Both the position numbers and the translations under genes were made by a program. Shown here piece after piece: positions 12,401-29,979 of a stretch of 61,195 nt of DNA. Each line of letters opens with the position of its first letter. The first letter of the stretch is position 1. The stretch is from contig JBCBZW010000021.1 of NCBI GenBank assembly GCA_039815145.1, positions 1-61,195 on the forward strand, read 5' to 3'. Source of the DNA: Pseudomonadota bacterium. GTDB lineage: Bacteria > Pseudomonadota > Gammaproteobacteria > Steroidobacterales > JBCBZW01. The notes under the pieces were generated by a model, which saw only the letters and a program-made list of their open reading frames with translations, was not told the DNA's origin and made no database searches.

Positions 12401-13353
12401 ACCCCGAGCACGGCGACTCGTCCGAGCAGCTCATCGCGCAGGCGGACACGGCCACCTTCAAGGTCAAGCAAGAGGGCGGCAACGCTCACGTGCGCTACAC
12501 GCGGCGCATGAACTCGCGCCAGGTGCAGCGCTTCGAACTCGAGAACGATCTGCGCACGGCGATCAAGCAGGGCGAGCTCGAGATCTACTTCCAGCCGAAG
12601 TTCTCCGCCCGCACCTTCGAGATCGTCGGCGCCGAGGCCTTGCTGCGCTGGCGCCACCCAACGCGGGGCTTCGTCTCACCGGCGGAGTTCATCCCGATCG
12701 CCGAGGAATCCGGCCTCATCGGCGACCTGGGCCATTTCGTCAGCTACGCGGCGAGTCAGCAGCAGGGGATCTGGCAGCGCAACGGCTTCGAGGTGGTGCC
12801 CATCGCCATCAACCTGTCGGCGGCGGAGTTCCATCGCGGCGACCCCGTCGACACCCTGCGCCTGGCGACCGACGTGGCGGAGATCTCGCCCACGCTCATC
12901 GAGGTGGAGATCACCGAGTCGATGTTGTTCCACGACCTCGGCGAGGTGGCGCGTTCCCTGGCCACCCTGCGTGAGCTCGGTTTCTCCCTGTCGGTCGATG
13001 ACTTCGGCACGGGGTATTCATCGCTCGGCTACCTGCGCAACCTGCCCCTGGACGCGCTGAAGATCGATCGTCAGTTCGTGTCGGACATCGGCGAGGATGC
13101 GGTGAGCGGACCGATCTGCGAGGCCATCATCGGCGTCGCGCACAGCTTGGGTCTGCGGGTGATCGCCGAGGGCATCGAGACGGAAGTGCAGGTTCGAGCC
13201 CTGCAGCGCTCGGGTTGCGATGAGTTCCAGGGCTTCCTTTTCGCCCGCCCCCTCACCTGCACCCAGTTCGAGTACTGGCTGCTGAACCGACGACATCCCT
13301 TAGGCGAGCGCTACGCCCTGACGGACGCGTCGGAGCAGGTGCAGGCCGGCTGA
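9478..13353 (+). CDS. Periplasmic-propeller receptor with GGDEF and EAL domains
   Basis: 1291-residue membrane receptor. A signal peptide (first about 20 residues) is followed by about 14 two-component-regulator propeller repeats of the form WVGTxxGLNRYD (residues about 25-680), then a Y_Y_Y domain (about 710-795), a TM helix at about 803-826, a GGDEF domain with intact AGGDEF (924-929) and an EAL domain with E1053 of EAL, NLSAAEF, EITES, DDFGTGYSS, KIDRQF and AEGIE all present. Both c-di-GMP synthesis and hydrolysis look possible; no RxxD inhibitory site precedes GGDEF. Fourteen blades would make two seven-bladed propellers that bind an unknown, often carbohydrate-type ligand. The start is GTG, placed right before the signal peptide. 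Confidence 0.93.
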   Translation: MSRTLIVVLVALLGELALASASPPMYFEHLSVQDGLSQSTVNVVHQDSQGFIWIGTESGLNRYDGYEVRRYQSRRDDPSSLPSDYIWDIEEDADGNLWLATDGGGVVRWVRATDKFQSFAVDRDGRQSGGALSSGSVRSIALGADDKVWIGTRGGGLNRLDPATGLVDIFRAGDPGTGALASDEVRALLIDSRNRLWVGTVEGLHRYDASSGNFIRYTHDPSRPESLSDNTVVAIAEDSAGSLWVGTFEGGLNRLVESALGTVSFEHFRADPKTPGSLSHNYVRAIQSDSFGRLWVGTADGLNLLNAAEGTFSTYRDSKLDSNSLAGNYIMGLYEDAGGLLWVGTRSGGVSRWNPRSWSMGHFAGGWLDNSIVTALVADRENKLWIGTLGNGLAQLDPTSRELRVDSAERPLGPVLEDTRTMSLMIDQAESLWVGTMTGGVHRYDPTTGETVVYRNVPGDPNSISANGIMSLFEAGDGSVWVGTHGGGVSVLDKATGRWKQWPHDPLNDHALSGPRASVIAQTPDGTIWVGTDNAGLNRFDPQLQGFHVFRSDRSDPNKLPSDAVFALHVAEDGTLWLGTAQGDLIEVDYAGASPGDVVFRSVEEIGLQLNAIYGIQSDEAGRLWLSTNNGLMRYNPQNGESKLYRRSHGLQGDEFNFAAHDRGANGMLFFGGVNGLNAFFPDDVEDPARPPPVVITDIRIFNLPAQTEDPPSLVRALTLDHTQDMISFAFAALDFNAPGENRYEYRLVGFDRDWNTVGPLNQATYTNLDAGSYVFQVRAANSDGVWSGSRSIDVRVLPAPWETIWAYIAYVATALLLVLGLLLWQRQRHEREAEMRRLENFDKLTGLPNRKLFTERLQEGIDEASERDEGMAVIHIDLDKFKRINDTLGQAVGDNVIKEISSRLAQEVSQSSDGVGRRELAHAGGDEFFIFVRHMSAMPEAERLASTLRNRICAPVQHSGQEFVITASIGIASYPEHGDSSEQLIAQADTATFKVKQEGGNAHVRYTRRMNSRQVQRFELENDLRTAIKQGELEIYFQPKFSARTFEIVGAEALLRWRHPTRGFVSPAEFIPIAEESGLIGDLGHFVSYAASQQQGIWQRNGFEVVPIAINLSAAEFHRGDPVDTLRLATDVAEISPTLIEVEITESMLFHDLGEVARSLATLRELGFSLSVDDFGTGYSSLGYLRNLPLDALKIDRQFVSDIGEDAVSGPICEAIIGVAHSLGLRVIAEGIETEVQVRALQRSGCDEFQGFLFARPLTCTQFEYWLLNRRHPLGERYALTDASEQVQAG

Positions 13354-13376
13354 GGGCTCGCCCAGGCGGGCGCTGC

Positions 13377-14120
13377 TCAGTCGATCAGTGCCCGGGCGAA
13401 GTGGTGGCGCACCTGACGTCGCCACCAGGCCCAGTCGTGGTCCACGTCGTGGCCCCACAGGTCCGTCTCGCAGCTGATGCCCTTGGAGGTGAGTAGCTCG
13501 CCGAGGGCTGCCGTGTCCTCGATGTTCCCATCCTCCCACTTGCCCTGCCCGCACACGAGCGTGAGGTGCGTGTTCTCGCGTACGGCGTCGAGGTAGCCGC
13601 CCGTCATGTTGGCGACGTAGGCCATGGGGTTGTTGAAGTAGACGTCTTCGTTGGTGAAGCCATCGGTGAGGCGGGTGGCGTGGTAGCGCCCGCTCATGCA
13701 CAGGGCGTAGCGGAAGATCTTGGGGAACTTCAGGGCCAGGTTGGCGGCGTAGAAGGCGCCCATGCTCGTGCCTGTCACGGCGATGGGGATGTCCTCGCTC
13801 TCGCAGTCCTGGCGGATCAGGGGCACCAGTTCCTCCACCAGGTAGCGCTCGAAGGCCATGTGGCGGCGGATGCGCCATTGCGGTGGGCCTTCCTTGCGCG
13901 TCCAGGCCTCGGCCACGTTGCTCTCGGTGCAGTAGAGCTTGAGGCGACCGGCATCGAGCCAGTCACCCAAGGTCTCGATCATGCCGCCGGCTTCCCACTC
14001 GTGAGCCATACCGGCAGCGGAAGGAAGCACCAGCACTGGCGGCCCGAAATGCCCGTAGCGCCACAGGTGCATGGGTCGATCCATGTGCTTGGTGGGGACG
14101 AGGTCGTGCTTCCTGAACAT
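13377..14120 (-). CDS. Putative esterase (alpha/beta-hydrolase, esterase D-like)
   Basis: 247-residue alpha/beta hydrolase without a signal peptide. The nucleophile elbow is GTSMGAFYAANLA, and the C-terminal histidine lies in WGHDVDHDWAWW. The sequence resembles the Pfam putative-esterase group (esterase D/PHB depolymerase-like). The substrate is unknown. It is the last gene in the same direction as Ku and the MerR-TPR gene, with a 117-base gap before it, so co-transcription is uncertain. It converges on the propeller-receptor gene with a 23-base gap. Confidence 0.8.
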   Translation of the reverse strand: MFRKHDLVPTKHMDRPMHLWRYGHFGPPVLVLPSAAGMAHEWEAGGMIETLGDWLDAGRLKLYCTESNVAEAWTRKEGPPQWRIRRHMAFERYLVEELVPLIRQDCESEDIPIAVTGTSMGAFYAANLALKFPKIFRYALCMSGRYHATRLTDGFTNEDVYFNNPMAYVANMTGGYLDAVRENTHLTLVCGQGKWEDGNIEDTAALGELLTSKGISCETDLWGHDVDHDWAWWRRQVRHHFARALID

Positions 14121-14237
14121 GCCTTTACTTCCTAGAACGTGAGGCCCGCGTGAGGTCCGCGGGGCTGCGATGGCGGTAAGGGGGCGTAGCGTAGCGCAGG
14201 CGCTCGCCGAGGGGGAACCGCTGGGAGCGCGGCGAAC

Positions 14238-15137
14238 TCAGCCTTGGCCCGTGAGATCGCGGTAGCGGCGCAGATGGCGAAAGGCGGTGACCCGGTCGCC
14301 GGCCAGCCCGTGGAGACGGGAGAGATTGAAGTGCGTATCCGCATGATCGGGATCGCGCTCCAGCGCCAGCTCGTAGGCGGTGATCGCCTCGGCGTGCCGG
14401 CCCTGGTCCTCGAGCGCCACCCCGAGGTTGAAGCGCGCCGTGGGGTGCTCCGGATACACCGCGAGGGCGCGGCGGTAGCACTGTTCGGCGTCCTGCACGT
14501 CGCCCGTGTCGTGCAGCAGCCGACCCAGGTTGATGTTGGCATCGGCGTGGCGTGGATCTACTGCGACGGCCTGGGCGTAGGCCACGATGGCGCGGTCCGC
14601 CTCGTCTACGGACTCGAGGTCGAGGCCGAGGACGAACCAGTCCTCGGCGGTGGTGGCGATGTCCTCTTCCGCCGCATCGGCACTGGCGATGACCAGCGGG
14701 GCCGCATCCGCGGCGAGGTCGTGGACGTTGAAGTCGAAGGTGGCTTGTCCCGTCTCCGGTTGCCACAGGGTGCCTTGCTCGCGCACGAGCACCTTGTCCC
14801 CCACGGCGGTAATACGCACGCCCGTGAGCGGCTGCCGCGAGGGCAGCCGTTGGCGCAGGGCGTGCAGGGCGGTGCGGATCCGTCGCGCGGGCACTTGCGC
14901 CTGCTCCAGCTCGCTGGCCGCGCGCAGAAGCACGATGTCGCGGAAGCTGTAACGGTACTGGCTGCCCTGCGCCTCGCGCTCGGCATCCAGCAGGCCGGCG
15001 CGCGCGAAGCTGCGCACACGCTCCAGGGGCAGGGCGGCGAGCTGAGCCGCTTCACGGGTGGTGTATCCGCGCATAGGGGTGCTGCTGCTGGTCGAGAGCG
15101 TTGGTGGGGCGAGCTGGGCGCTGCTGGCGTGTGCCAT
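14238..15137 (-). CDS. MerR-type HTH protein fused to TPR repeats
   Basis: 299-residue protein. A MerR-like winged helix (about residues 22-95: YTTREAAQLAALPLERVRSFARAGLL...YRYSFRDIVLLRAASEL) is followed by a linker rich in Asp/Ala and four TPR-like units from about residue 165, for example NINLGRLLHDTGDVQDAEQCYRRALAVYPEHPTA. It lies 33 bases downstream of ku on the same strand and probably forms an operon with it. A protein of this architecture next to NHEJ genes suggests a regulator or adaptor of the pathway; that is inference from position. An internal ATG at 15074 is an alternative start. Confidence 0.78.
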   Translation of the reverse strand: MAHASSAQLAPPTLSTSSSTPMRGYTTREAAQLAALPLERVRSFARAGLLDAEREAQGSQYRYSFRDIVLLRAASELEQAQVPARRIRTALHALRQRLPSRQPLTGVRITAVGDKVLVREQGTLWQPETGQATFDFNVHDLAADAAPLVIASADAAEEDIATTAEDWFVLGLDLESVDEADRAIVAYAQAVAVDPRHADANINLGRLLHDTGDVQDAEQCYRRALAVYPEHPTARFNLGVALEDQGRHAEAITAYELALERDPDHADTHFNLSRLHGLAGDRVTAFRHLRRYRDLTGQG

Positions 15138-15170
15138 CGTACGGTGACCGATCGAGGCTTGAAAAGCGGA

Positions 15171-16085
15171 TCAGCGCTCGCCGGCCGCCACCTTGCGCTT
15201 GCGGGTGGTGGGGCTTGAGCTGCTGGTGCTGGCCTTCTTCTTTTTCCTGGTCGTCGCCTTCTTGGCGGCGGGGCTCTTGCGCGCAGGCTTGCGCGACTGA
15301 CCTTCCTCACCGTCGCGCGAGGCGATGCTCGCCTTCAGCGCCTCCATGATATCGATGATCTTGTCATCCGCGTGCTCGGCCGGGGTGACGCTGATGTCCT
15401 CACCGTCCACCTTGCGCTGGATCAGATCCAGCATCCGTTCGCGCACCTCGTCCTTGTACTTCTCCGGCTCGAAGCGCTCACTAGCCGATTGCTCGATGAG
15501 CTGCACCGCGAGGTCGAGTTCGCCGTCACGCACCTCCGCCGTCTCCACCTCCAGGTCGGAGAAGCGGCGCAGTTCCTGCGCGTAGTGCAGCTGCTCCAGC
15601 ATCAAGCCGTCCTCGAAGGGGCGCACCATCACCAGGTGCTGGCGCCCGCGCGCAGCGTAGCGAGCGATGGCGGCTCGGCCGGTCTTGCGCAGGGCTGCGG
15701 CCAGCAAGCTGTAGGCGCGAGCGCCACCCTTGTCCGGCCCGAGGTAGTAGGCCTTGTCCACCATCAGGTGATCGACCTGGGAAGCCTCGATGAACTCCAC
15801 CACGTCGATCATCTGGTCCGCCGTGGCTTCCAGCGCCTTTAGCTCCTCGGGGGAGAACAGCACGTACTGGTCCTTACTGAACTCGTAGCCCTTGACGATC
15901 TCGCTGCGCGGCACCGGTTCGCCAGTCTTGGCCGAGACGGTCTGGTGCTTGATGCGCGAGCCGTCCTTGCTGTGGATCTGGTTGAAACGCACCGCGTGGG
16001 TGGAATCGACGGCGGCGAAGAGCTTCACCGGAATCGAGACCAGACCGAAGGCGATGCTGGCTGAGGCCAACGCGCGTGCTGCCAT
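15171..16085 (-). CDS. ku: Ku DNA end-binding protein (NHEJ)
   Basis: 304-residue bacterial Ku homologue. The start MAARALASASIAFGLVSIPVKLFAA and segments such as VKGYEFSKDQYVLFSPEEL and LDLIQRKVDGEDI are diagnostic. The Ku core spans residues about 1-255, and the last 45 residues are a Lys/Ser/Thr-rich tail that is likely disordered and DNA-contacting. As a homodimer it rings DNA ends and recruits LigD. The ATG has GGGAG upstream. It is divergent from ligD with only 28-79 bases between start codons, depending on the ligD start. Confidence 0.96.
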   Translation of the reverse strand: MAARALASASIAFGLVSIPVKLFAAVDSTHAVRFNQIHSKDGSRIKHQTVSAKTGEPVPRSEIVKGYEFSKDQYVLFSPEELKALEATADQMIDVVEFIEASQVDHLMVDKAYYLGPDKGGARAYSLLAAALRKTGRAAIARYAARGRQHLVMVRPFEDGLMLEQLHYAQELRRFSDLEVETAEVRDGELDLAVQLIEQSASERFEPEKYKDEVRERMLDLIQRKVDGEDISVTPAEHADDKIIDIMEALKASIASRDGEEGQSRKPARKSPAAKKATTRKKKKASTSSSSPTTRKRKVAAGER

Positions 16086-16113
16086 GGCTACCCGCTCCCT
16101 TGTTTGTTGAGCG

Positions 16114-18729
16114 ATGATGACGGTTCGTCAGCATAGCCCCCAGGGGGGCTCTCAGGCAACTCACGTGCCCGGTAAAACAACAGAAAAACTCGCAACTTAC
16201 AGGGCAAAGCGATCTGCCGACTCAACTCCGGAGCCCTTCGCCGGCGGGTGGCCCGTGGCGGGGGGTAACCTGTTTGTTGTGCAGCAGCATCACGCCCAGG
16301 CGCGCCACTACGATCTGCGCCTGGAGATGGCGGGCGTGCTGGTCTCCTGGGCCGTGCCCAAGGGGCCGTCGCCGAACTCCTCCACCAAGCGCTTTGCGGT
16401 GCAGACCGAGGACCACCCCCTGGAGTACGCCAACTTCGAAGGGGTGATTCCCGAAGGCAACTACGGCGCCGGCACGATGATCGTGTGGGACCAGGGGCGC
16501 TGGGAGCCGCTGGAAGATGTCGATGCTGGCTTCGAGAAGGGCAAGCTGCTTTTCAACCTCCACGGCGCCAAGCTGCACGGCCGCTGGACCCTCATCAAGA
16601 CCAAACGTGGGGAGAAGGACTGGCTGCTCATCAAGGAGCGCGATCGCCACGTTCAGGATGAGGACACGGACGAGGCCTACCCGCACGATTCGGTGCTGAG
16701 CGGACTCACGGTGGAGCAGGTGGCGGCTGGCTACGACGCCGATGCGGCGCTCGGTGCGCAGCTGGCTAAGGCGTCGGGCGCTGAGCGGCGTCGGGTCGAA
16801 CTGTCGGCGGTGAAGCCGATGCTGGCCGAGCCGGCCAAGCCCTTCAGTGACCCCGCCTGGCTGTTCGAACCGAAGCTGGATGGCTATCGGCTGCTGGCGG
16901 CGAGGGAGGGTGGCGACCAACCGGTGGTGCTGAGGTCGCGCAAGGGGAACGATCTCACCGACACGTTCCCGGAGGTCGCCTTCGCTCTCTCGCGCCTGCC
17001 CGTGACGCGATGGTTGATCGATGGCGAGGTCGTCGTGAATGACGCGCGGGGCCTGCCGTCCTTCGCCCTCATGCAACAGCGCGCCAAACGTCTGCGGCGA
17101 ACGGATGTGCGGGCGGCGAGCGTGCGCATGCCGGCGCAGTACCACGCCTTCGATCTCCCCGTGGTGGGCGACTTCGATCTGCGCTCCCTGCCCCTGCACG
17201 AGCGCAAGCAGTGGCTGGCGAAGCTCCTGCCGAGCAGCGGCCTGGTGCGCTACACGGGGCATGTGCAAGAGGCGGGGGAGGCCCTGTACGAGCAAGCGCA
17301 GCGCCTGGACCTCGAGGGCTTGATGGCCAAGCGCGCCGACTCGCCCTACGTGGAGGGGCGATCGGCGCACTGGCGCAAGCTTCCCGTGGAGCACCGGGCG
17401 GATTGTCTGGTGCTCGGCTACACGGACAGCGACGGGGCTCAGAGTGGCTTCGGCGCCCTGCTGCTCGGTCAGTATCAAGGCGATCGACTGCGCTACGTGG
17501 GGCGGGTCGGCACGGGCTTCGACGGTGCCCTGAGAGATCGGTTGGCAGCGAGGCTGCGCACGGCTGCGCCCTTGGCGAAGCTCCCCGAGGCCCTGCCTCC
17601 TGGGGCGATGGGTAGTTGGCATTGGCGCTCGAGCGATCTGATCTGTGAGGTACGTCACAAGCAGTACAGTGGCGAGGGGCGCTTGCGCCAACCGGTGTTC
17701 CTGCGCCTGCGTGAAGATAAGGAGATCCACGAGTGCCTCTACGCGGGGGCAGGGGAACCCGAGCAGTCGGCCGCCACGACGACTGACTCGGCGCCGTCGG
17801 ATGCGCCCACCGGTGCGCAGCAGCCCGCCGAGGTGCCGGTGACCAATCAGGATAAGGTCTTCTGGCCGGAGGATGGGATCACCAAGGGCCAGCTCGTCAG
17901 CTACTACGATCAGATCGCCCCTTACCTTTTACCTTATCTTCGCGATAGGCCTCTCGTGCTGACCCGCTATCCCGATGGCATCGAAGGGAAGTCCTTCTTC
18001 CAGAAAGATGCCCCCGCCTACGCACCCCCTTGGCTGCGCCGCGAAACCCTGTGGAGCCAACACGCCGAGCGCGAGATCAACTACTTCGTGGCTGAGGACG
18101 AGCAGGCCCTGCGCTGGATCATCAACTTAGGCACGATCCCCCTGCACATCTGGTCCAGCCGCCTCAGTCACCTGGCCCATCCGGACTGGAGCATCATCGA
18201 CCTCGATCCCAAGGGCGCCCCCTTTTCGGACGTGTTGAGGATCGCTCGCTTCCTGCAGGCGCTGTGTGCGGACGTGCAGCTGCCGGCCTTCGTGAAGACC
18301 ACTGGATCCACCGGCCTGCACATTTTGTTGCCCCTGGGCGGGCAGCTCGCCTACGAGCAATCGCGCACGCTGGCGGAGCTGCTGGCGCGTATCACGGTAG
18401 CCGCCTTGCCGAAAATCGCCACCATCACGCGCGCCGTGGAGCGGCGCCAGAACAAGGTGTACATCGATTATCTGCAGAACGGCCACGGCCGCCTGCTGGT
18501 CGCTCCCTACAGCGTGCGCCCCCTGCCGGGCGCCCCCGTGTCAATGCCCCTGGCCTGGCGCGAGGTCAAGGGTGGTCTCCAATCGCAGCGCTACACGGTG
18601 ACCAATGCGCTACGCCGCTTGCGCTCCCTGCGCGTCGACCCATGGGCCGATCTATTGACCGAGGCACCGGATCTGCTGGCGGTGCTGCAGCGCCTCGGCA
18701 GCCGTTGGGAGGCACACCGAGACGCTTGA
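16114..18729 (+). CDS. ligD: ATP-dependent DNA ligase D (PE-LIG-POL)
   Basis: 871-residue three-domain NHEJ enzyme. The order is 3'-phosphoesterase (about residues 40-200, HHAQARHYDLRLE), ligase (about 225-540, adenylated Lys254 in EPKLDGYRL) and primase/polymerase (about 580-860, metal-binding Asp696 and Asp698 in IIDLDPKG). This is the Pseudomonas-type order and differs from mycobacterial POL-PE-LIG. All three active sites look intact. A low-complexity Thr/Ala/Pro linker separates LIG and POL. Neither the ATG pair at 16114 nor the in-frame GTG at 16165 has a convincing ribosome site; family alignment (TYRAKRSADSTPEPF near the start) allows either. Confidence 0.95.
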   Translation: MMTVRQHSPQGGSQATHVPGKTTEKLATYRAKRSADSTPEPFAGGWPVAGGNLFVVQQHHAQARHYDLRLEMAGVLVSWAVPKGPSPNSSTKRFAVQTEDHPLEYANFEGVIPEGNYGAGTMIVWDQGRWEPLEDVDAGFEKGKLLFNLHGAKLHGRWTLIKTKRGEKDWLLIKERDRHVQDEDTDEAYPHDSVLSGLTVEQVAAGYDADAALGAQLAKASGAERRRVELSAVKPMLAEPAKPFSDPAWLFEPKLDGYRLLAAREGGDQPVVLRSRKGNDLTDTFPEVAFALSRLPVTRWLIDGEVVVNDARGLPSFALMQQRAKRLRRTDVRAASVRMPAQYHAFDLPVVGDFDLRSLPLHERKQWLAKLLPSSGLVRYTGHVQEAGEALYEQAQRLDLEGLMAKRADSPYVEGRSAHWRKLPVEHRADCLVLGYTDSDGAQSGFGALLLGQYQGDRLRYVGRVGTGFDGALRDRLAARLRTAAPLAKLPEALPPGAMGSWHWRSSDLICEVRHKQYSGEGRLRQPVFLRLREDKEIHECLYAGAGEPEQSAATTTDSAPSDAPTGAQQPAEVPVTNQDKVFWPEDGITKGQLVSYYDQIAPYLLPYLRDRPLVLTRYPDGIEGKSFFQKDAPAYAPPWLRRETLWSQHAEREINYFVAEDEQALRWIINLGTIPLHIWSSRLSHLAHPDWSIIDLDPKGAPFSDVLRIARFLQALCADVQLPAFVKTTGSTGLHILLPLGGQLAYEQSRTLAELLARITVAALPKIATITRAVERRQNKVYIDYLQNGHGRLLVAPYSVRPLPGAPVSMPLAWREVKGGLQSQRYTVTNALRRLRSLRVDPWADLLTEAPDLLAVLQRLGSRWEAHRDA

Positions 18730-18780
18730 GGGGCGTGGGGCTCGGCGCAGCCACCTTGTGATACTCTGAAGGGAGTTTTC

Positions 18781-19347
18781 GTGCGCGTTCACCTCATGCC
18801 CTGGCGATCACCCCTCCTGCTCATCTGCGCCCTTGCGCTGCTCACCGCTTGCTCCAGCACCACCTCCGTGGTCATGGTCGATCGCATTCGGCCGGGCAAC
18901 GGCTACGCACTGATCGTCGTGCACACCAACTGGGAGGCGTACGAGATCGGTTTCGAGCGGCTCCAGCTCTACTACGCGCCGAGGGGCGATGGCGCGTCGG
19001 GCAAGGTGAGGGTCAGGCGAAGCGGCGAGTTGGAGCTGGTCGAACTGCCGGCGGGTGACTATCAATGGCGCGAGGTGCGCCTGGGCCTGCACAGCGTTCC
19101 CCTTTCCCGCGATAGCGGATTCCGCGTCCGCGAGGGCGCCATCACCTATCTGGGCGATCTCGAAGCCGCCTACGATCGCGACACGCGAAAGCTGATCAGC
19201 CTCGAGGTGCGCGATGGCGCCGACGTCGCGCGGGAGCGCTTCCGCGAGGCCAACACGCCGCTGCTCGAGCGCTATCCCCTGTACACCGATCAGATCATGG
19301 TGCTCACCCCGGAGCCGGCGCTGCGCGACCCTCGCGATCAGCCTTGA
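18781..19347 (+). CDS. Putative lipoprotein at the head of the Pot-like operon
   Basis: 188-residue protein of unknown function. A lipoprotein signal (SPLLLICALALLTAC) with lipobox LTAC predicts lipidation at about Cys21. The mature part has mixed beta-type segments and no recognised domain. The start is GTG with AAGGGAG upstream. It ends 24 bases before the PotA-like gene, so it is probably co-transcribed. It does not resemble PotD or another substrate-binding protein, being about half their length. An auxiliary role for the transporter is only a guess. Confidence 0.65.
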   Translation: MRVHLMPWRSPLLLICALALLTACSSTTSVVMVDRIRPGNGYALIVVHTNWEAYEIGFERLQLYYAPRGDGASGKVRVRRSGELELVELPAGDYQWREVRLGLHSVPLSRDSGFRVREGAITYLGDLEAAYDRDTRKLISLEVRDGADVARERFREANTPLLERYPLYTDQIMVLTPEPALRDPRDQP

Positions 19348-19371
19348 TCTTCCCCACTCGCAGGTAGACCC

Positions 19372-20490
19372 ATGAGCGCAGCGCCACCACCAGTGCTTCG
19401 TGTGGAGGGCTTGCGCAGGATGCGCCAGGAGGAGCAGGCGGCGATCGACGGTGTCGATCTGCAGATCTCGCCCGGCGAGGCCTTTTGCCTGCTCGGTCAG
19501 TCGGGCAGCGGCGCCCGCACCATGCTCCACGCCTTGGGGGGCTTGGTTCAGGTGGATGAAGGGCGTATCGAACTCGACGGCGAGGACATCACGGCTGCGC
19601 CGGCCCATCGCCGGCAGCTGAACACGGTGTTTCGGTCGAACGCCTTGTTCCCCCACCTGAGCGTGGCCGGGAACATCCGCTTCGGGCTGCAGCGCGAGGG
19701 CCTTGGTAAGGCGCAGATGCGCGAACGGCTGGATGAGATGCTGGCGCTGCTGCAACTCGAAGCGCAAGCGACCCTCAAACCACAGGCACTCACGAGCGAG
19801 CAACAACGCCGCGTCGCCCTCGCGCGCTGCCTGGCGAAGCGACCGCGTTTGTTGCTCCTGGAGGAACCCCTCGGCGGCCTCGATCAGCAGCAGCGAGTCG
19901 ACATGCAGTTGGTCTTGCTCAGGATGCGGGCGACGCTCGATCTCACCTTCGTCATCGCGACGCGCGACTGGGAGGAAGCGATCACGATGGCCACGCGAGT
20001 GGGCGTCATGCGATCGGGACGCCTCGAGCAGGTGGGGTCACCGCGTGAGATCTACGACACTCCTCGGAATCGGTTCGTGGCTGGCCAGGTGGGGATCACC
20101 AACGCCTTCGACGGGGAGGTTACGGGGCAGCGCGATAGCGGGTTTTTGACCGTGCGCGTTGAGGGGATGGGCGATGATCTGCAGGTAAGCGGTGCCGCAC
20201 CCCTGGCGCCCGGTACCAAGGTCACGGTGATGGTCAGGCCCGAACGGCTTCGCTTTCTCACTCTCAAGGATCGGGTGGATGAGAGTTTTGTGAGCAACGC
20301 GTTCGAAGCCGAGGTCACCCAGCGCATCTTCCGCGGCGAACGCTTTTCTTATGTGGTTAGCTTTGGCGGGCGGACGCTGCAGGTGAGCATCCCCCATGGG
20401 TTCCTCGACGAGGGTGCCCCCAGCCCCGAGGTGGGTGAGCGCGTGCGCCTGGCGTTTACCCCGCCAGCCGCGTGGGTGCTCAGCGAGTGA
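19372..20490 (+). CDS. PotA-like ABC ATPase subunit with degenerate catalytic motifs
   Basis: 372-residue spermidine/putrescine-type (PotA family) ABC subunit with ABC domain (about 8-240) and C-terminal TOBE domain (about 285-370). Every nucleotide motif is altered. Walker A is GQSGSGARTM, with the lysine replaced by Ala48. The Q-loop reads VFRSNALFPH with Arg88 for Gln. The signature is LTSEQQRR for LSGGQQQR. Walker B is LLLLEEP with Glu164 for Asp. The switch reads ATRDWEEA with Arg198 for the H-loop His. The frame is open and the D-loop region and TOBE domain persist, so this is a pseudo-ATPase under constraint rather than an obvious pseudogene. It overlaps potB by four bases. Confidence 0.88.
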   Translation: MSAAPPPVLRVEGLRRMRQEEQAAIDGVDLQISPGEAFCLLGQSGSGARTMLHALGGLVQVDEGRIELDGEDITAAPAHRRQLNTVFRSNALFPHLSVAGNIRFGLQREGLGKAQMRERLDEMLALLQLEAQATLKPQALTSEQQRRVALARCLAKRPRLLLLEEPLGGLDQQQRVDMQLVLLRMRATLDLTFVIATRDWEEAITMATRVGVMRSGRLEQVGSPREIYDTPRNRFVAGQVGITNAFDGEVTGQRDSGFLTVRVEGMGDDLQVSGAAPLAPGTKVTVMVRPERLRFLTLKDRVDESFVSNAFEAEVTQRIFRGERFSYVVSFGGRTLQVSIPHGFLDEGAPSPEVGERVRLAFTPPAAWVLSE

Positions 20491-21401
20491 ATCGAGCGGT
20501 GGCCAGCGGACTGCGCATCTCCACGACCGCAGGTCCTGGCACCCGTAGGTGGCGAGGTGTGGTGATCCTCCTGCCGATGCTCTGGCTGATTGGCGTGGTC
20601 GTATTGCCGATGCTCGTGCTATTGAAGGTGGCACTGGCGCAGGCGCCCGCAGCCGACGGCGTAGTGAACGTGTTCTCGTGGCAGGTCTCCCTGGAGCACC
20701 TGCGGCAGCTGGCTGAGGATGCCCGCTACTCGTCGGCATATATCAACTCGCTTCGGATGGCTTCGCTCACCACCATCGCCTGTCTGCTGCTCGGTGTGCC
20801 GTTGGCGCTCGCGATTGCGCGCAGCCCTCGGCGCTGGCGGGGGCTGTTGCTGTTCGCTGCGGTGTTGCCGTTCTTCACATCCTTCCTGCTGCGCGCCTAC
20901 GCTTGGATGGGGTTTGTGGGAAGCGCGGGTCCGCTCGACGTCGCCCTGCGGGTCTTCGGCGTGGACGCCGGGATCCTCGCCGTGCTCGGTTCGCCACCAG
21001 TGATCCTGCTCGGCATGGTCTACACCTATCTGCCGATGATGGTGGTGCCCGTGTACGTGAATCTGGTACGCCAGGACGTGCGCTTGCTTGAGGCGGCTCG
21101 CGATCTCGGCGCCTCCGAGCTACATAGCGTTGTCTCCATCACCCTGCCCCTGGCCCTGCCCGGCATGCTCGCTGGGTGCATGTTGGTGTTCGGTCCGGCC
21201 GTTGGGGAGTTCATCGTTCCGGTGCTGTTGGCCGGGGCCGAGGCGCCGATGGTCGGCGTGGTGATCTGGGAGGCGTTCTTCACCGCCGGCGATTGGCCGG
21301 TGGCGGCCGCCTTGGCCGTCGTGCTGGGTCTGCTGCTCCTGTCACCGATGGCGCTGTTACAGGCGCGCCTCCTGCTGCCGGCCGGGGAGTCCCGCGCATG
21401 A
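20487..21401 (+). CDS. PotB-like ABC transporter permease
   Basis: Permease of about 304 residues in the spermidine/putrescine family with six predicted TM segments and the cytoplasmic coupling motif EAARDLGASELHSVVSITLPLALPG, which is intact. It pairs with the PotC-like permease to form the channel. The start is taken as the GTG at 20487, which overlaps the potA stop in a GTGA arrangement typical of translational coupling; an in-frame GTG at 20472 would add five residues. No substrate-binding PotD gene is in the window. Confidence 0.88.
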   Translation: MNRAVASGLRISTTAGPGTRRWRGVVILLPMLWLIGVVVLPMLVLLKVALAQAPAADGVVNVFSWQVSLEHLRQLAEDARYSSAYINSLRMASLTTIACLLLGVPLALAIARSPRRWRGLLLFAAVLPFFTSFLLRAYAWMGFVGSAGPLDVALRVFGVDAGILAVLGSPPVILLGMVYTYLPMMVVPVYVNLVRQDVRLLEAARDLGASELHSVVSITLPLALPGMLAGCMLVFGPAVGEFIVPVLLAGAEAPMVGVVIWEAFFTAGDWPVAAALAVVLGLLLLSPMALLQARLLLPAGESRA

Positions 21402-22198
21402 GCGCTCGGGCGCGCTGGCCGCTGTACAGCGTAGCGGCATTCACCTATGCATTGCTTTATGTGCCCCTGTTCACCTTGATCATCGGCGCGTTCAACGGCT
21501 CGCCTCAGGGCGGCGCCTGGGGTGGATTCTCCTTGCGCTGGTTCACCGCTCTGTTCGCCGATCAGCGAGTGCTCGGCGCTGCAGCTTTCAGCCTGCGCGT
21601 AGCGGCGGTGAATGCGACGTTGGCGCTCGTGCTCGGCACGCTGGCCGCGGTGGCTCTCGAGCGGATCGGGGGATTCCGGGGTCGCGCAGCCCTTGGCGGT
21701 CTGGTGGGCTTGCCGCTCGTGGTGCCGGAGGTGATCACGGGCTTGTCGTTGGTCCTGTTGTTCGTCGCCTTGGAGCAAGCCGTCGGCTGGCCGGCGCGTC
21801 GCGGGGGCGATGTGATTGCGATCGCGCATGCGACCCTTGCCACCGCCTACACCGCCGTCCTGTTGCGCGACCGACTTGCTCGCCTGGACCGCAGTCTGGA
21901 GGCGGCGGCGAGGGATCTGGGCGCCCACCCAGCTGCGGCCTTCGCCCTGGTGACGGTACCGGCCTTGGCTCCAGCGATGTTCGCGGCCTGGATCCTGGCG
22001 TTCACCCTATCCCTGGACGACTTGATGATCGCCAGCTTCGTGGCGGACGCCGACGCCCTGAGCTTGCCCATGGTAGTGTTCGCCGAGTCCCGTTCGGGGC
22101 TCAACCCGCTGGTCAATGCACTGGCTACCGTTATGATTGTGCTCGTGGCCAGCGGGCTCGCCTTGAGCGCATGGATGAGGAGTCGCCGTGCCAGCTGA
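21398..22198 (+). CDS. PotC-like ABC transporter permease
   Basis: 266-residue permease of the same family, with six TM segments and coupling motif EAAARDLGAHPAAAFALVTVPALAPA. The start ATG overlaps the potB stop (ATGA) and has GGGGAG about eight bases upstream. The SLDDLMIASF segment near the end is typical of PotC. It ends inside the start of the following sulfotransferase-like gene (11-base overlap), indicating one operon from 18781 or 19372 to 22940. Confidence 0.88.
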   Translation: MSARARWPLYSVAAFTYALLYVPLFTLIIGAFNGSPQGGAWGGFSLRWFTALFADQRVLGAAAFSLRVAAVNATLALVLGTLAAVALERIGGFRGRAALGGLVGLPLVVPEVITGLSLVLLFVALEQAVGWPARRGGDVIAIAHATLATAYTAVLLRDRLARLDRSLEAAARDLGAHPAAAFALVTVPALAPAMFAAWILAFTLSLDDLMIASFVADADALSLPMVVFAESRSGLNPLVNALATVMIVLVASGLALSAWMRSRRAS

Positions 22199-22940
22199 CC
22201 CGTCAATGTCCCCGGCCGCCGTGCGCATCGCCATGTGGTCCGGGCCGCGCAACATCTCCACGGCCATGATGCGGGCCTTCGATGCGCGCGGGGATTGCGC
22301 CGTGTGCGACGAGCCGCTGTACGCGCACTACCTGCACGAGACCCGACTTGCCCATCCCGCCGCGCAGGAGGTGATCGCCTCCCAGTCGACCAACTGGCGT
22401 GAGGTGGTGGCCGAACTCCTGGGGCCTGTACCCGGCGCTAAAGCCCTGTGGTACCAAAAGCACATGAGCCATCATCTGCTCGAGGTGATCGACCGCCAGT
22501 GGATCTTGCCGTTGCGTAACGCCTTTCTGATCCGTTCGCCTCGCGCGATGCTCGCGTCCCTGGCGCGGGTGCTCGATCAACCACGGATCGAAGACACCGG
22601 CCTACCCCAACAGGTGGCGCTCTTCGAGTGGCTGACCGAGCGCACCGGGCTGATACCGCCGGTTGTAGACAGCGAAGATGTGTTGCGCGATCCGCCCGCC
22701 TTGCTGAGTGCCCTCTGCGCGCACCTTCGCGTCCCGTTCACCGAGGCGATGTTGACCTGGGCGCCCGGTCCGCGCGCGAGTGATGGCGTGTGGGCGGAGC
22801 ACTGGTACGGCTCCGTGACCAACAGTGCCGGTTTCAGCCCGTGGCAGGCGCGGGAGGTCGAGGTGCCCGAGGTGGTGGCGCCGCTGGTAGCTCCCTGCGA
22901 GGCGCTCTACGCCAAGCTCTATCGCCATCGCCTGCGCTGA
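22188..22940 (+). CDS. Sulfotransferase-like P-loop protein
   Basis: 250-residue cytoplasmic protein. The N-terminal IAMWSGPRNISTAMMRAF resembles the PAPS-binding 5' loop of sulfotransferases and of the branched-chain-aminotransferase-like sulfotransferase group. FLIRSPRAMLASLARV corresponds to the 3'-phosphate binding strand. PAPS-dependent sulfation or a related phosphoryl chemistry is likely, but the acceptor is unknown. The GTG start overlaps potC by 11 bases and has GAGGAG-like sequence upstream. Its presence in the transporter operon links it to the transported molecule, by context only. Confidence 0.7.
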   Translation: MPADPSMSPAAVRIAMWSGPRNISTAMMRAFDARGDCAVCDEPLYAHYLHETRLAHPAAQEVIASQSTNWREVVAELLGPVPGAKALWYQKHMSHHLLEVIDRQWILPLRNAFLIRSPRAMLASLARVLDQPRIEDTGLPQQVALFEWLTERTGLIPPVVDSEDVLRDPPALLSALCAHLRVPFTEAMLTWAPGPRASDGVWAEHWYGSVTNSAGFSPWQAREVEVPEVVAPLVAPCEALYAKLYRHRLR

Positions 22941-23050
22941 CCCGCGCCGTTGCCCGGCGCCTTCTCGACGGCAATCGCGGTAGACTGTCGGGCGCACGCG
23001 GGCTGACCTGTCGCTAGCCTTCGGCGCCGTCGATCACCCTGCCGAGATCC

Positions 23051-24574
23051 ATGCCGGTGAGCGCTTCCACAGACAGCCAATCCGAGATTCCTGCCATCCG
23101 GGAGGAGGAGCAGCCCGAGCGCGGCCGCCTTGGACCGATCGTGTTCCTGCTCGGTGCTTGCTTCGTGCTCGTGGCGACGCCGCTGGTGATCGCGATCTCC
23201 GTGGCCTACTTCAGTGTGGAAGGGCTGTCGGATGCTGCGGCGCGGGAGGTGGAGGACACGAGCAACATCGCTGCCTTCGCCCGTGATGTGGCGCGAGATA
23301 TTACCGAGCTGCGTCGTTTCAGTCGGCAGGCCCCGGTGGTCGCTGCCGACAAGGAGCTCTACGAGGATCTGTACTCGGCGGTGACATCGCGTCAGATCAA
23401 GATGAGCAAGACCATCCACAACCTGCTCAACCAGCCTATCGACGAGTCGCCTCGCCGGCAGCTGCACGAATTGTTGGAGATGAGTGCCGCGCTCCTGGTT
23501 GGGTTTGTGGAGCGCCCAGAGGATCCCGATCGCTTGGCTATGATCGACGAGATGCAGCGTCTGGTCGATGAGGTGATCACCTACCCCGAGACCAAGCGCC
23601 TGCAGGTCACGGCGCAGGTGCGTGAGCGCGCCCAGCGCACCCTCGATGTGCTGACCAAGCTGCTGGTGGCAGCCATTCCGACGGCGGCGCTCCTAATCGT
23701 GCTCTTCACCTTCTTGATCTCACAGTCCATGCGCGACATCACCGGTGCCATCAAGCAGCTGGGCGACAACCGCTTCGAGGACCGCATCAGCGTCAAGGGG
23801 CCTGCCGACCTGCGGGCGCTCGGCGGTGAGTTGGACGTGCTTCGAGACCGCCTGCAGCAAGCCGAGATTCAGAAGCAACGTTTCCTGCGCCACATGTCGC
23901 ACGAGCTCAAGACACCGCTCGCGAGCCTCCTGGAGGGCACGGAGCTGTTCGTCGACGGATCCCTCGGCCACTTGCCCACGGCCCAGTCCGAGGTGGCGGG
24001 TATTTTGCGCAGCAATGCGCAGGAACTGCGCCATCTCATCGAAAACTTGCTCGACTACAGCGCGTGGCAGTCCCATGGCAGCACCTTGCGCTGCACCGAG
24101 TTCGACCTACAGGTACTGTGTTCGCAGGTGCTCGACCAGTATCGACTGATGATGCGTACGCGGCGCGTGACCGTGGATCAGCGCGTCGTACCTGTCGATC
24201 TGATGGCCGATCGCGACAAGCTGCGCACGGTCCTGAGCAACTTGTTGTCAAACGCTATCAAATACACGCCGGAGAACGGCACCATCTTTTTGCGCGCCTA
24301 CCGCGCGGGCGGTCACTTGCTGTTAGATATCGCGGACTCGGGGCCCAATATTCCCGAGGCGGAGAGAGCCCACGTGTTCGAACCGTTTTACACCGGAACA
24401 CCGCCACAGCAGGCACACTTGAAGGGCAGCGGCATCGGCCTATCGCTGGTGCGCGAATACGTGAGAGCCCATGGGGGCGAGGTAAACCTGGTGGATGGAA
24501 TTTATCGCGGCGCGCACTTCCGGATACGGATGCCGGTAAAGGCGCAGTCAGGACCGGTGAGGGTATCCGCATGA
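23051..24574 (+). CDS. glrK: GlrK/QseE-like sensor histidine kinase
   Basis: 507-residue inner-membrane kinase. TM1 is at about 28-55, with a periplasmic helical region to about 190, TM2 at about 198-222, HAMP, H-box HMSHELKTPLASLLEG and a HATPase domain with LSNLLSNAIKYTPENG and KGSGIGLSLVREYVRAHGG. The G1 box reads DSGPNIPE, with Asn for the usual Gly. The order kinase, QseG-like lipoprotein, NtrC-type regulator matches the glrK-qseG-glrR locus of enterobacteria, which controls envelope-related genes. It overlaps the next gene as ATGA. Confidence 0.86.
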   Translation: MPVSASTDSQSEIPAIREEEQPERGRLGPIVFLLGACFVLVATPLVIAISVAYFSVEGLSDAAAREVEDTSNIAAFARDVARDITELRRFSRQAPVVAADKELYEDLYSAVTSRQIKMSKTIHNLLNQPIDESPRRQLHELLEMSAALLVGFVERPEDPDRLAMIDEMQRLVDEVITYPETKRLQVTAQVRERAQRTLDVLTKLLVAAIPTAALLIVLFTFLISQSMRDITGAIKQLGDNRFEDRISVKGPADLRALGGELDVLRDRLQQAEIQKQRFLRHMSHELKTPLASLLEGTELFVDGSLGHLPTAQSEVAGILRSNAQELRHLIENLLDYSAWQSHGSTLRCTEFDLQVLCSQVLDQYRLMMRTRRVTVDQRVVPVDLMADRDKLRTVLSNLLSNAIKYTPENGTIFLRAYRAGGHLLLDIADSGPNIPEAERAHVFEPFYTGTPPQQAHLKGSGIGLSLVREYVRAHGGEVNLVDGIYRGAHFRIRMPVKAQSGPVRVSA

Positions 24575-25194
24575 GCGCAGTCGCACCGCAGCGCCGGCGC
24601 GCGAATCGGCGACTCATCGGCGCAGGGATGGCGGCCCTGGTCGCCACGCTCACGCTCAGTGCTTGCGAGACCCTGGGTGACCTCGGTGGGGAGCGCATCG
24701 GCTCGGGTAGTCCCACCGTAACCGGCGAATGGTTGGAGCAGCCGCGCGCCTACGCCACGCGGATTGCCAGTGCGGAAGCGCCGAGTCGTGCGCGCGAACG
24801 CCAGCAGGCTCTGGCCGCTCTGCTGCGCGACCCGCGGGCCGATTCCGCCGTACGTGCCCAGCTGATCTACTCCGCTGCGGTGCTCGACGTGGAAGAGGCC
24901 TACCAGGCACGCGATGAGATCGCGTCAGCCCTCAGCCAAGCGCCGAGCCCCTTCGCCAAGGCCGTGCTGACGAGCCTCGATCTTTCGATCGAGCAGCGCC
25001 AGAGCGCTTACCGCGAGGCGCTGGAGCAGGAAAACCTGCGCAACGTCGAGATTCAGGAGCGGACGGAGGCGGAACTCGAGCGCGACCGCCTGGCCCGGGA
25101 GCGAGCCCGCCTCGCGCGCGCCCTGGAGGAAGCACAAGGTCGCCTCAGGGCCCTTATGTCCATCGAAGAGCAGCTCCAGAGCGACGGCACCTGA
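24571..25194 (+). CDS. qseG: QseG-like lipoprotein
   Basis: 207-residue lipoprotein. The signal peptide ends in lipobox LSAC (about residues 30-33: ATLTLSACETLGDLGG). A helical region follows, then a charged coiled coil from about residue 150 (ERTEAELERDRLARERARL). Position between the GlrK-like kinase and the GlrR-like regulator, lipidation and coiled-coil tail match QseG, an outer-membrane partner that activates the kinase. Its ATG overlaps the kinase stop by four bases. A 25-base tandem duplication spans its stop codon. Confidence 0.75.
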   Translation: MSAVAPQRRRANRRLIGAGMAALVATLTLSACETLGDLGGERIGSGSPTVTGEWLEQPRAYATRIASAEAPSRARERQQALAALLRDPRADSAVRAQLIYSAAVLDVEEAYQARDEIASALSQAPSPFAKAVLTSLDLSIEQRQSAYREALEQENLRNVEIQERTEAELERDRLARERARLARALEEAQGRLRALMSIEEQLQSDGT

Positions 25195-25225
25195 ACCCGC
25201 CCAGAGCGGCGGCACCCGAACCCGC
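25176..25225 (+). repeat. 25-bp tandem duplication over the qseG stop codon
   Basis: Positions 25176-25200 and 25201-25225 are adjacent copies of the same 25 bases, differing at two positions (GAGCGACGG against GAGCGGCGG and CACCTGAA against CACCCGAA). In the first copy the CTGA change supplies the qseG stop TGA; the second copy reads CCGA there. The stop may therefore lie at a recently duplicated site. Confidence 0.85.
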
Positions 25226-25370
25226 CCCTAGCGACCACATCTGACACGCAAATCGTCTCGCAAATTCAGGAGCTTGGAGAGGATCACGCTTTGCCCGGCG
25301 GGCGCGTGGTAGCGTGTCACCATAGTCCCGTCGCCAGGCGACGACGGATACCGTCGCGCCGTCCACTACG

Positions 25371-26753
25371 ATGAACTTGGGCGCCATGAGTAATCCAACT
25401 GCCATCGCCACCCTCAAGCCCGAGCACCGCGGCCACGTCTTGCTGGTCGACGATGATCCGGGGCTCCTTCGCCTGCTCAGCATCCGCCTGGAGCAGTACG
25501 GCTTCTCCGTCGAGGCGGTCAACAACGCCTCAGCGGGCCTGCAGAGTGTGCAGACCCGACGACCCGATGCGGTGATCACCGATCTACGCATGGACGGCAT
25601 GGACGGGATCAACCTGCTCGAAGCGTTGCAGCGTGAGCATCCGGGCTTGCCCGTGATCCTCATCACCGCCCACGGCACGATCCCCGACGCCGTGCGGGCC
25701 ACGCAGAGCGGAGCCCTCGCGTTCCTGACCAAGCCGGTTGAGCGCACGGAGCTGCTGGAGGCCTTGGATAAGGCCCTGCGCACGGGTGCCGCACAGGCCG
25801 GGAAACCGGAGGAGCAGCAGGACTGGCGCTCCGACATCGTGACCCGCTCGGGCCGGATGGAAGAGCTGCTCGCTGAGCTCGACCGCGTCGCCCAGACGAG
25901 CTCCGGCGTAATGCTGGCCGGCGAGGGCGGCACCGGCAAGCGCCTCCTGGCCGAAGCTCTGCATCGGGCGAGCGCGCGCGAGGCCAAGCCCTTCCGGGCC
26001 GTGAGCTGCTCCTCCATGAGCGAGGCCATGCTCGATGTGGAGCTGTTCGGTCACGCCGACGGCGAAGTGGCTGCGCAGCCCGGTCAGCTCGTGGAAGCGG
26101 ACGGCGGCACGGTCTTCCTCAACGACGTCGGCGATCTGCCGCCCGCACTGCAAGCGAAGCTATTGCGGATGCTCACCGACGGCAAGGTGCGACCCGTCGG
26201 CGCCACGCACGATGTGGAAGTGGATGTGCGCGTGGTGTGCGCCGTCTCCCAAGACCTTATGCCAGCGATAGGTGACGGCCGTTTTCGGGAAGATCTCTAC
26301 TACCGCTTGAACGTGGTGCGATTGGAAGTGCCGTCCCTGGCCGAGCGTCGCGAGGATGTCCCCGCCCTGGCCATGCACTTCCTCCAGCGCATCGCCGCGC
26401 GTACGGGCGAAGCGCCGAAGATGTTCTCGCCGGAAGCGATGGAGCGCCTGGTCACCGCGGACTGGCCCGGTAATGTGCGCCAGCTGGCAAATCTGATCGA
26501 GCAGACCGTGGCTCTGTCCGCGTCGTCGGTCATCAGCGCCAAGCTCGTGGACAAGTCACTCGGCTCCGAGTCGCGGGGGCTGCCGCCACTCGCGCAGGCG
26601 CGCGACGAGTTCGTGCGCAACTACCTCCTGCAGCTCCTGCAGACCACCCGAGGCAACGTCAGTCAGGCGGCGCGCCTGGCCCAGCGCAACCGCACCGAGT
26701 TCTACAAGCTCCTCGCTCGCCACGACATAAACCCTCAAGCGTTCAAGCGCTGA
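25371..26753 (+). CDS. glrR: GlrR-like NtrC-family regulator lacking GAFTGA
   Basis: 460-residue regulator. The receiver has Asp71 in VITDLRMDG. The AAA+ domain has Walker A GEGGTGK (184-190), arginine-finger segment FREDLYYRLNVV and a C-terminal Fis-type helix-turn-helix RGNVSQAARLAQRNRTEFYKL, close to E. coli GlrR. The sigma-54 contact loop is lost: after ELFGH the sequence reads ADGEVAAQPG (229-238), four residues shorter than a GAFTGA protein. Walker B reads VFLNDVGD with Asn251-Asp252 for Asp-Glu. It probably cannot open sigma-54 promoters and may act at sigma-70 promoters, like other GAFTGA-less NtrC relatives. An ATG at 25386 is an alternative start. Confidence 0.86.
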   Translation: MNLGAMSNPTAIATLKPEHRGHVLLVDDDPGLLRLLSIRLEQYGFSVEAVNNASAGLQSVQTRRPDAVITDLRMDGMDGINLLEALQREHPGLPVILITAHGTIPDAVRATQSGALAFLTKPVERTELLEALDKALRTGAAQAGKPEEQQDWRSDIVTRSGRMEELLAELDRVAQTSSGVMLAGEGGTGKRLLAEALHRASAREAKPFRAVSCSSMSEAMLDVELFGHADGEVAAQPGQLVEADGGTVFLNDVGDLPPALQAKLLRMLTDGKVRPVGATHDVEVDVRVVCAVSQDLMPAIGDGRFREDLYYRLNVVRLEVPSLAERREDVPALAMHFLQRIAARTGEAPKMFSPEAMERLVTADWPGNVRQLANLIEQTVALSASSVISAKLVDKSLGSESRGLPPLAQARDEFVRNYLLQLLQTTRGNVSQAARLAQRNRTEFYKLLARHDINPQAFKR

Positions 26754-26908
26754 TCCGCAGCGACGCACCGCTCGTCGCGATCGGCGTCGGAACCGCGAGG
26801 CTCCTCACGGTTCTGCCTGCTGTGCGCTGGCACGATGCCCCTGATGCTTCGGGGGCACGCACCCCCTCACTCTCGCCTGCGCGCGCCGCGCGCTTCGGAG
26901 GTGCTTCT

Positions 26909-27199
26909 ATGGGATTTCACCCGTCACGCTCGGCTGCCAGTGGCCGGCGCATGAGCGTCGTCCGCTCCGTGGCCATCGCCACGACCGTCCTGTCGACCAC
27001 CGCGTTCGCCAATGCGATCGGCATGTTCAACACCTTGGATGCCGATCACAACGGACTCCTACGACGACCGGAACTCGCCGCCCACCCGGCGCTCACGGCA
27101 CGTTTTGCGCAGGCCGATCAGAATCGGGACGGGGCGCTTTCGCTAGCGGAGTTCGAGGCCCTGCTCGCCATGCCTGGGGCGACGCCCAGTCTCGAGTGA
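26909..27199 (+). CDS. Small exported EF-hand protein
   Basis: 96-residue protein with an N-terminal signal-like segment (SVVRSVAIATTVLSTTAFA) and two EF-hand loops, DADHNGLLRRPEL and DQNRDGALSLAEF, each with Ca2+ ligands at positions 1, 3, 5 and 12. This suggests a periplasmic calcium binder. The ATG at 26909 has GGAGGTG six bases upstream, which decides the start over an upstream in-frame GTG at 26822. A weak hairpin (GTGCG and GCCCC pairing with GGGGC and CGCAC, 26822-26862) lies between it and glrR. It ends at a bidirectional terminator. Confidence 0.75.
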   Translation: MGFHPSRSAASGRRMSVVRSVAIATTVLSTTAFANAIGMFNTLDADHNGLLRRPELAAHPALTARFAQADQNRDGALSLAEFEALLAMPGATPSLE

Positions 27200-27236
27200 G
27201 CTGACGCGACCCCACGGCCACGGACGCCCGGCAAAG

Positions 27237-27272
27237 AAAAAGGCCGTCAGCGCAAACGCTGACGGCCTTTTT
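27237..27272. terminator. Bidirectional intrinsic terminator
   Basis: AAAAAGGCCGTCAGCG (27237-27252) and its perfect complement (27257-27272) form a 16-bp stem with loop CAAA. T-runs follow on both strands. It separates the convergent EF-hand and PEP-CTERM genes and serves both. Confidence 0.93.
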
Positions 27273-27324
27273 GCTCGAGGCCGCGGCAACGTCGCTTGGA
27301 CGCTACCGCTGCTGCCGACGCGGC

Positions 27325-28035: not shown

Positions 28036-28191
28036 GTTGTTGTCTCTTCCTAAAGTTGCTGCCGGCCCTCGCTCCTTCCTGTGAGCTTCAAACGGGCGGG
28101 GATTCTTATGAGCAGAAACCACCTAAGCCGGCTATCTCTCTTGTCCCGACGCGACTCCCAAGAGGTGTCACGCCGATCCGTGACTCATTCT

Positions 28192-28207
28192 TGCATTCTT
28201 TGTGCCA
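28192..28207 (-). promoter_or_regulatory. Candidate sigma-54 promoter for the PEP-CTERM gene
   Basis: On the minus strand TGGCACAAAGAATGCA matches TGGCACRNNNNTTGCW with one mismatch and correct GG-to-GC spacing. The predicted start near 28180 gives a leader of about 145 bases. Sigma-54 control through PrsK/PrsR is known for PEP-CTERM/exosortase genes. The surrounding 28130-28300 is visibly richer in A+T than its neighbours. Confidence 0.55.
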
Positions 28208-28323
28208 CTCAGATTTTTTCTTAAGCTTTTCAGACGGTAATGAGTTTTTCGCGGCAGATGCCGTAGGACGATTCGAGGTGAGGTGTATATATTTTCGACG
28301 AACGGTCGTCGGCGCCGCGGAGC

Positions 28324-29919: not shown

Positions 29920-29979
29920 CCATGACTCTCCTGAAGTGGCTCAGCATCGGACCCGTCGCGTCTTAAGTGCCTCAGCTCC

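Follow-up and report, generated by a model that had tools for sequence, protein, structure and literature searches.

The question raised by this locus is what becomes of an ATP-binding subunit of a polyamine-type ABC transporter when the residues of its ATP site are replaced and its gene remains part of a full-length operon. The stretch of DNA analysed (61,195 nucleotides; hereafter the window) is the entire contig C21 of a 6.0 Mb genome that comprises 295 contigs and is 99.5% complete, with 1.64% estimated contamination. On its forward strand, a gene at 19372–20490 was identified from frame, profile and alignment evidence to encode a PotA/PotG-like ATP-binding subunit of 372 amino acids with a degenerate ATP site.

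The PotA-like subunit and its ATP site

The gene starts with ATG and extends over 372 codons with zero internal stops. Its product possesses the Pfam domains ABC_tran (residues 26–167) and TOBE_2 (residues 286–370; 20227–20481 of the forward strand), which bears out the description of an open frame of 372 codons with the TOBE domain included, given in an earlier note made from the sequence of this DNA. The top NCBIfam model was that of PotA (NF006987) with 287.5 bits against a curated cut-off of 482, and TIGR01187 also missed its cut-off (284.4 vs. 355.6 bits). The runners-up were models of other polyamine and of phosphonate ATPases, and all of these scored below their curated cut-offs. The GC content of potA by codon position (0.716/0.458/0.794) is inside the range of the neighbouring genes. 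An AlphaFold2 model of the protein, computed from a 47-sequence alignment, gave a mean pLDDT of 89.5, with helices at residues 48–55 and 142–154 corresponding to those of Walker A and the signature. Its top match in the PDB was E. coli PotA (TM 0.88 by query length, 38% identity), and the sequence is thus predicted to be compatible with the PotA fold. Because the alignment was made of intact homologues, the model speaks for compatibility with the fold and not for or against the binding of ATP.

Substitutions were mapped by aligning the protein with E. coli PotA and with homologues from 60 loci. Using this approach, the hallmarks of a PotA-type ATPase, namely the Walker A Lys, the Q-loop Gln, LSGGQ, the Walker B Asp and the H-loop His, were all found to be missing. 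In Walker A (GQSGSGART, 19495–19521; the stretch reads on as GQSGSGARTM) the Lys is replaced by Ala48 and the following Thr/Ser by Arg49, with the glycines kept. The Q-loop Gln is Arg88 (19633–19635), the signature is LTSEQ at residues 140–144 (19789–19803; LSGGQ or LSGGE in the relatives), Walker B ends in EEP (19861–19869) with Asp changed to Glu164 and the catalytic Glu165 kept, and the H-loop His is Arg198 (19963–19965), all on the forward strand. The five substitutions claimed previously (Ala48, Arg88, LTSEQ, Glu164 and Arg198) are therefore real by both alignments. To these can be added three that had gone unmentioned, with the E. coli residue given first: Arg143 to Leu135, Gln147 to Ala139 and, in the A-loop, Phe27 to Arg18 (19423–19425, forward strand). 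The last alignment is uncertain by one residue; as there are zero aromatics in residues 9–37, the A-loop aromatic is gone despite this gap. Both signature glycines are lost along with the Q-loop Gln. Kept are the Walker A glycines, Thr50, Leu140 and Gln144 of the signature, Glu165 and the Leu-Asp of the D-loop. The statement that every catalytic motif had been lost was consequently slightly too strong as regards the Walker A glycines and Glu165, and it left uncounted the losses at the A-loop, Arg49, Leu135 and Ala139.

The available part of the cryo-EM study of E. coli PotABC (PMC11414716) names 12 positions of PotA as ATP-contacting or catalytic. Nine of these are replaced in the window protein (F27R, K30Q, K56A, T57R, R143L, Q147A, S149T, D172E and H206R, in E. 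coli numbers) and three are kept (S52, T58 and E173). According to the same part of that study, alanine at F27, T57, S149 or D172 lowered the ATPase activity of E. coli PotA, and R143A had no strong effect on it. In light of the established biochemistry of nucleotide-binding domains (NBDs), these replacements indicate that the subunit has almost certainly lost both the binding and the hydrolysis of ATP.

The permeases and the layout of the operon

Two permease genes follow on the forward strand, identified by ORF, NCBIfam and Pfam analysis: a PotB/PotH-like gene at 20472–21401, which starts at GTG 20472 or GTG 20487, and a PotC/PotI-like gene at 21398–22198. The stop of potA overlaps the start of potB as GTGA (20487–20490), so that the overlap reported earlier is real, with the in-frame GTG at 20472 as the other possible start. 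The end of potB runs 4 bases into potC; with GTG 22188 as the start of the following gene, the end of potC would likewise run 11 bases into it. The frames of potA, potB and potC are all open and full-length, and pseudogene signs (frameshift, nonsense or truncation) are absent. The top models for the two permeases were PotH and PotI, with NCBIfam scores below the curated cut-offs. The conserved residues of the EAA loop are kept in PotB (A208, A209, D211, L212 and G213) and in PotC (A170, A171, D173, L174 and A176), which upholds the earlier statement that the coupling motifs of the permeases are intact, though PotB has the change F220V. At the positions of the E. coli spermidine and gate residues, the commonest residue of the relatives is present at 4/8 in PotB and 7/8 in PotC, some operons being counted twice. 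In PotC, the acidic cavity residues Glu111 and Asp207 stand where E. coli PotC has D108 and D198.

Terminator-like matches over the operon stretch numbered 3 against 2.4 expected and promoter-like matches 1 against 0.3, both near chance; the single promoter-like site falls inside the end of potC. The gene whose start region overlaps the end of potC (22188–22940) has a Sulfotransfer_5 domain, and in the congener described below the Sulfotransfer_5 gene is found directly after the upstream lipoprotein-like gene.

Homologues, constraint and the congener

Lys48, Ser/Thr49, Gln88, LSGG, Asp164 and His198 are present in 60/60 of the homologous loci read, which come from the same order, class and phylum and are 36–49% identical to the PotA-like protein. 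These loci (L037–L081, L092 and L115–L128) are the matches that were returned as loci, some of them near-identical. The search for a second carrier of the same substitutions, suggested in the earlier note, thus gave none, all 60 loci being intact. Searches over 59, 196, 369, 396 and 398 genomes (overlapping sets, strict thresholds) brought up no closer homologue. The thresholds used were 1e-60 to 1e-78 with only the best first-look candidates scored, and a more diverged dead PotA could therefore be missed. A scan of a collection of genome contigs with short exact peptide patterns, which detects close relatives only, returned three distant relatives and no carrier. The state with a dead ATP site is known from one genome only and, with a single carrier, its conservation cannot be shown. 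The operon gave no DNA match among plasmids, no protein match among them at 1e-60 and no match among viral contigs. There is also no GC break across the window in steps of 2 kb; the AT skew dips to -0.317 at 20001–22000, over the permeases. As far as tested, there is no sign of a plasmid or viral origin.

For PotA, constraint was assessed over 46 of the 60 loci, taking the columns in which at least 95% of these relatives agree; 45 loci served for PotB, as the flank of L080 has no PotB, and 8 stretches for PotC. In PotA, 31/100 conserved columns are changed, compared to 0 to 10 (at most 10/102) in the intact relatives when each was left out in turn; outside the motif windows the count is 16/62. 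Changes were found in 12/63 conserved columns of PotB and in 7/46 of PotC. The two most divergent intact operons have 18/70 and 17/56 changed in PotB and 15/61 and 11/57 in PotC, and less divergent intact relatives have 0 to 4 PotB columns changed. From these column counts, PotA is relaxed at conserved columns relative to intact PotAs of equal divergence, whereas PotB and PotC appear no more relaxed than divergent intact homologues, a comparison which rests on two outliers. Within PotA, columns of the ATP site are changed more often (8/11) than those elsewhere (23/89; hypergeometric p = 0.003), for a set of sites that was picked post hoc; restricted to the residues that the available part of PMC11414716 names, a set also chosen post hoc, the counts are 5/8 and 26/92 (p = 0.058). 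A BLOSUM test of conservative change gave p = 0.06 outside the ATP site and 0.19 inside it.

Maximum-likelihood trees were built for PotA and PotB, and in each the longest terminal branch is that of the window (1.82 and 2.06, respectively). The ratio of mean PotA to PotB distances is 0.98 in the window and 0.71–1.48 in the other operons. In the PotA tree the window lacks a supported sister; in the PotB tree it groups with L092 where support is weak. Neutral evolution was also simulated, beginning from the window's own open frames. When all changes at conserved columns were made neutral, the three frames were jointly open with a probability of 0.0003–0.016 without indels and of far less with indels. 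PotA alone stayed open in 0.8–10% of runs without indels, which is suggestive, and in 0/1000 runs under each of three settings with 0.05 frameshifts per substitution. With only the excess of 21 PotA changes made neutral, its frame was open in 7–21% of runs without indels. It is thus unlikely that the three frames would survive fully neutral decay, and more possible if polarity protects them.

The only other genome of the family that was compared is G001, of the same genus. Its contig C3 (locus L110) matches window 12000–19347 at 82% and 22178–30000 at 79%, and between these flanks the stretch at 19348–22177, which holds the 2.83-kb operon, is missing and replaced by 45 other bases. That potC overlaps the gene after it leans towards loss of the operon in the congener, yet the intact relatives inspected have differing gene surroundings. 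The earlier note had held that intact close relatives at the same locus, together with relaxed selection here, would indicate a decaying gene. Relatives are indeed intact and PotA is relaxed; none of them has the operon at this locus, however, and the permeases show no relaxation in excess of the two outliers.

Possible fates of the importer: a retained pseudo-ATPase complex or loss

There is no PotD/PotF-like binding protein in the operon. In 7/7 of the longer stretches available for relatives (L093–L099), the operon is accompanied by a homologue of the L093 binding protein. The L093 protein used as a query, in a search that had no control of its own, gave no match in this genome (G000) or in the congener. 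Compared locally, it matches the binding proteins of 6/6 other relatives at E <= 3e-38 and is unmatched by the two SBP_bac_8 proteins of the genome (best E 0.53); the search of the genome with binding-protein families had 13/14 controls positive. Contig 154 of the same genome encodes an extracellular SBP_bac_6/8-type binding protein (L112, 1348–2451) adjacent to a regulator judged LysR-like by eye, and no transporter genes were recognised within the 3.6 kb listed around it.

With the PotA-like protein as a query, 49 places in the genome were matched, its own gene included, with the next best at 38% identity. This ATPase, FbpC-like by eye, adjoins its own binding protein and a permease of 544 amino acids. 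Searched with PotB, the genome yielded a single additional weak match, which lies on contig C2 next to another ATPase. On contig 15 (L114, 2069–6064), an ATPase and a binding protein on the reverse strand are divergent from a two-domain permease on the forward strand, in an arrangement that is Fbp-like by eye. An orphan intact PotA, which had been proposed earlier as something to look for in the full genome, was not found: no second gene scored above the cut-off of the PotA family model, and the window's own gene is below it as well. The operon itself encodes one ATPase gene, and with no other PotA over the cut-off genome-wide no second competent NBD partner was identified.

Having neither a binding protein that could be found nor a usable ATP site, the importer is taken to pump no longer. 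We give roughly even chances to the explanation that this former importer has been kept as a complex of permeases and a pseudo-ATPase. The ancestor would have been a polyamine-type ABC importer, in which a PotA worked with PotH/PotI-like permeases, and its ATP-binding subunit would have become a pseudo-ATPase that kept its fold and C-terminal domain. A static, nucleotide-free PotA dimer would then most likely hold the PotB–PotC pair facing inward, which is the form of apo E. coli PotABC in the available part of PMC11414716. The role of such a complex would not be pumping; it might allow slow or gated passage, or act as a polyamine-responsive membrane complex. We infer its assembly, its locked state and any present role. 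A bolder form, which we regard as possible though distinctly doubtful, is that a type I importer has become ATP-independent, with the dead-site homodimer as a fixed scaffold or regulatory platform for a PotB–PotC pore that serves as a gate, a facilitator or a polyamine-responsive switch without a binding protein.

Against retention as a complex stands the view that the operon is in the course of being lost: the binding protein went, the importer became useless, the ATP site was relaxed and the rest is to follow, with the frames still open either by chance or on account of the polar effect that a nonsense mutation would have on the sulfotransferase-like gene downstream. This is the main rival, and we consider it somewhat improbable. 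The relaxation of PotA at 31/100 conserved columns, the longest branches in both trees, the lack of a PotD/PotF-like match in the genome, the clean absence of the operon from G001, the occurrence of the state in one genome and the overlap of the potC end with the next gene would all be expected of it. It is harder to reconcile with three open frames, given their joint neutral probability of 0.0003–0.016 without indels, with the ordinary codon-position GC of potA, and with permeases whose relaxation does not exceed that of the two most divergent intact homologues. Polarity might account for the open frames and not for the conserved permease residues, and would itself be reduced if the promoter-like site in the end of potC is real. 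An artefact of sequencing, assembly or binning is very improbable. It could be argued from an assembly in 295 contigs with 1.64% estimated contamination and from there being a single sequence of the operon, but the frame is fully open, both flanks match the congener at about 77–82% identity, and the changes are many, several of them of two or three bases. The earlier judgement that this is no sequencing error is sustained, since the changed site residues number about a dozen and some of their codons differ at two or three bases; several ATP-site codons are two or three bases away from any Lys, Phe or Gln codon of the standard code. Sequencing error as such is ruled out by the open frame, the multi-base codon changes and the syntenic flanks.

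It had also been suggested that the permeases borrow another ATPase of the cell, with the window subunit replaced or acting as the silent half of a mixed NBD pair. Multitask NBDs are known in type I importers, such as MsmX, which drives several importers in Bacillus subtilis (PMC7658222, in its available part), so that by this likeness the permeases could work without a dedicated ATPase; the EAA-loop residues are kept, and the genome has intact ATPases of related kinds, the nearest at 38%. In contrast to the MsmX case, neither the PotA-model search of the genome nor the neighbourhood of the nearest ATPase gave an orphan PotA-type ATPase. The suggestion is weakened by there being no other gene over the PotA cut-off and by the nearest ATPase having transporter partners of its own, both a binding protein and a permease, and no polyamine binding protein was found in the genome. 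A mixed pair would moreover leave both composite sites damaged, because each joins the Walker A of one subunit to the signature of the other. A borrowed ATPase is for us an unlikely explanation.

Compared to known systems, the window operon resembles the E. coli PotD–PotABC spermidine importer (PDB 8y5f/8zx1; PMC11414716, as far as its available part describes it) in its subunits A, B and C, in the NBD with a C-terminal domain, in the EAA-loop residues and in the acidic cavity residues of PotC. It differs in the replacement of 9/12 named ATP positions, in the lack of a detectable PotD and in several of the spermidine and gate residues of PotB. With the PotGHI putrescine importers and the intact PotABC homologues of the same order it shares the A-B-C gene order and PotH and PotI as best models, whereas the homologues have intact ATP sites at 60/60 loci and a binding protein beside the operon in 7/7. 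As it fails on the ATP site, the curated scores and the binding protein, we class the window system as a descendant of PotA-type importers and not as a working one. Heterodimeric exporters with a degenerate site (TM287/288 and others; PMC7756269) likewise retain a subunit whose site residues have changed naturally. In these exporters, by the available part of that source, one site is degenerate yet holds ATP and the other hydrolyses it, whereas the one ATPase gene of the operon would render both sites dead. No importer with both ATP sites degenerate was found in the open literature searched, although one may still be in print. If the complex has been kept, an importer whose only ATPase gene has both composite sites lost, while fold, frame and most of the permease conservation persist, would separate the structural job of the NBD from its catalytic one; if it is decaying, the locus would record the steps of an importer's loss, with binding protein and ATP site going before the permeases.

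The surroundings of the operon contain genes of other kinds. Directly upstream, at 14238–18729, there is a divergent pair of end-joining repair genes encoding Ku and a three-domain LigD, adjoined by a gene for a protein with a MerR-like helix-turn-helix and TPR repeats (14238–15137). Downstream, at 23051–26753, a histidine kinase and a sigma-54-type response regulator are encoded with a small gene between them. A link of the operon to this kinase was set aside, because the congener carries the kinase and the regulator without the operon. For the same reason, the earlier suggestion that the complex is a sensor rather than a pump gained nothing in its favour from these neighbours, and no other sign pointed to it. 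The arrangement of kinase, small gene and regulator is one that we take to resemble that of QseE/G/F.
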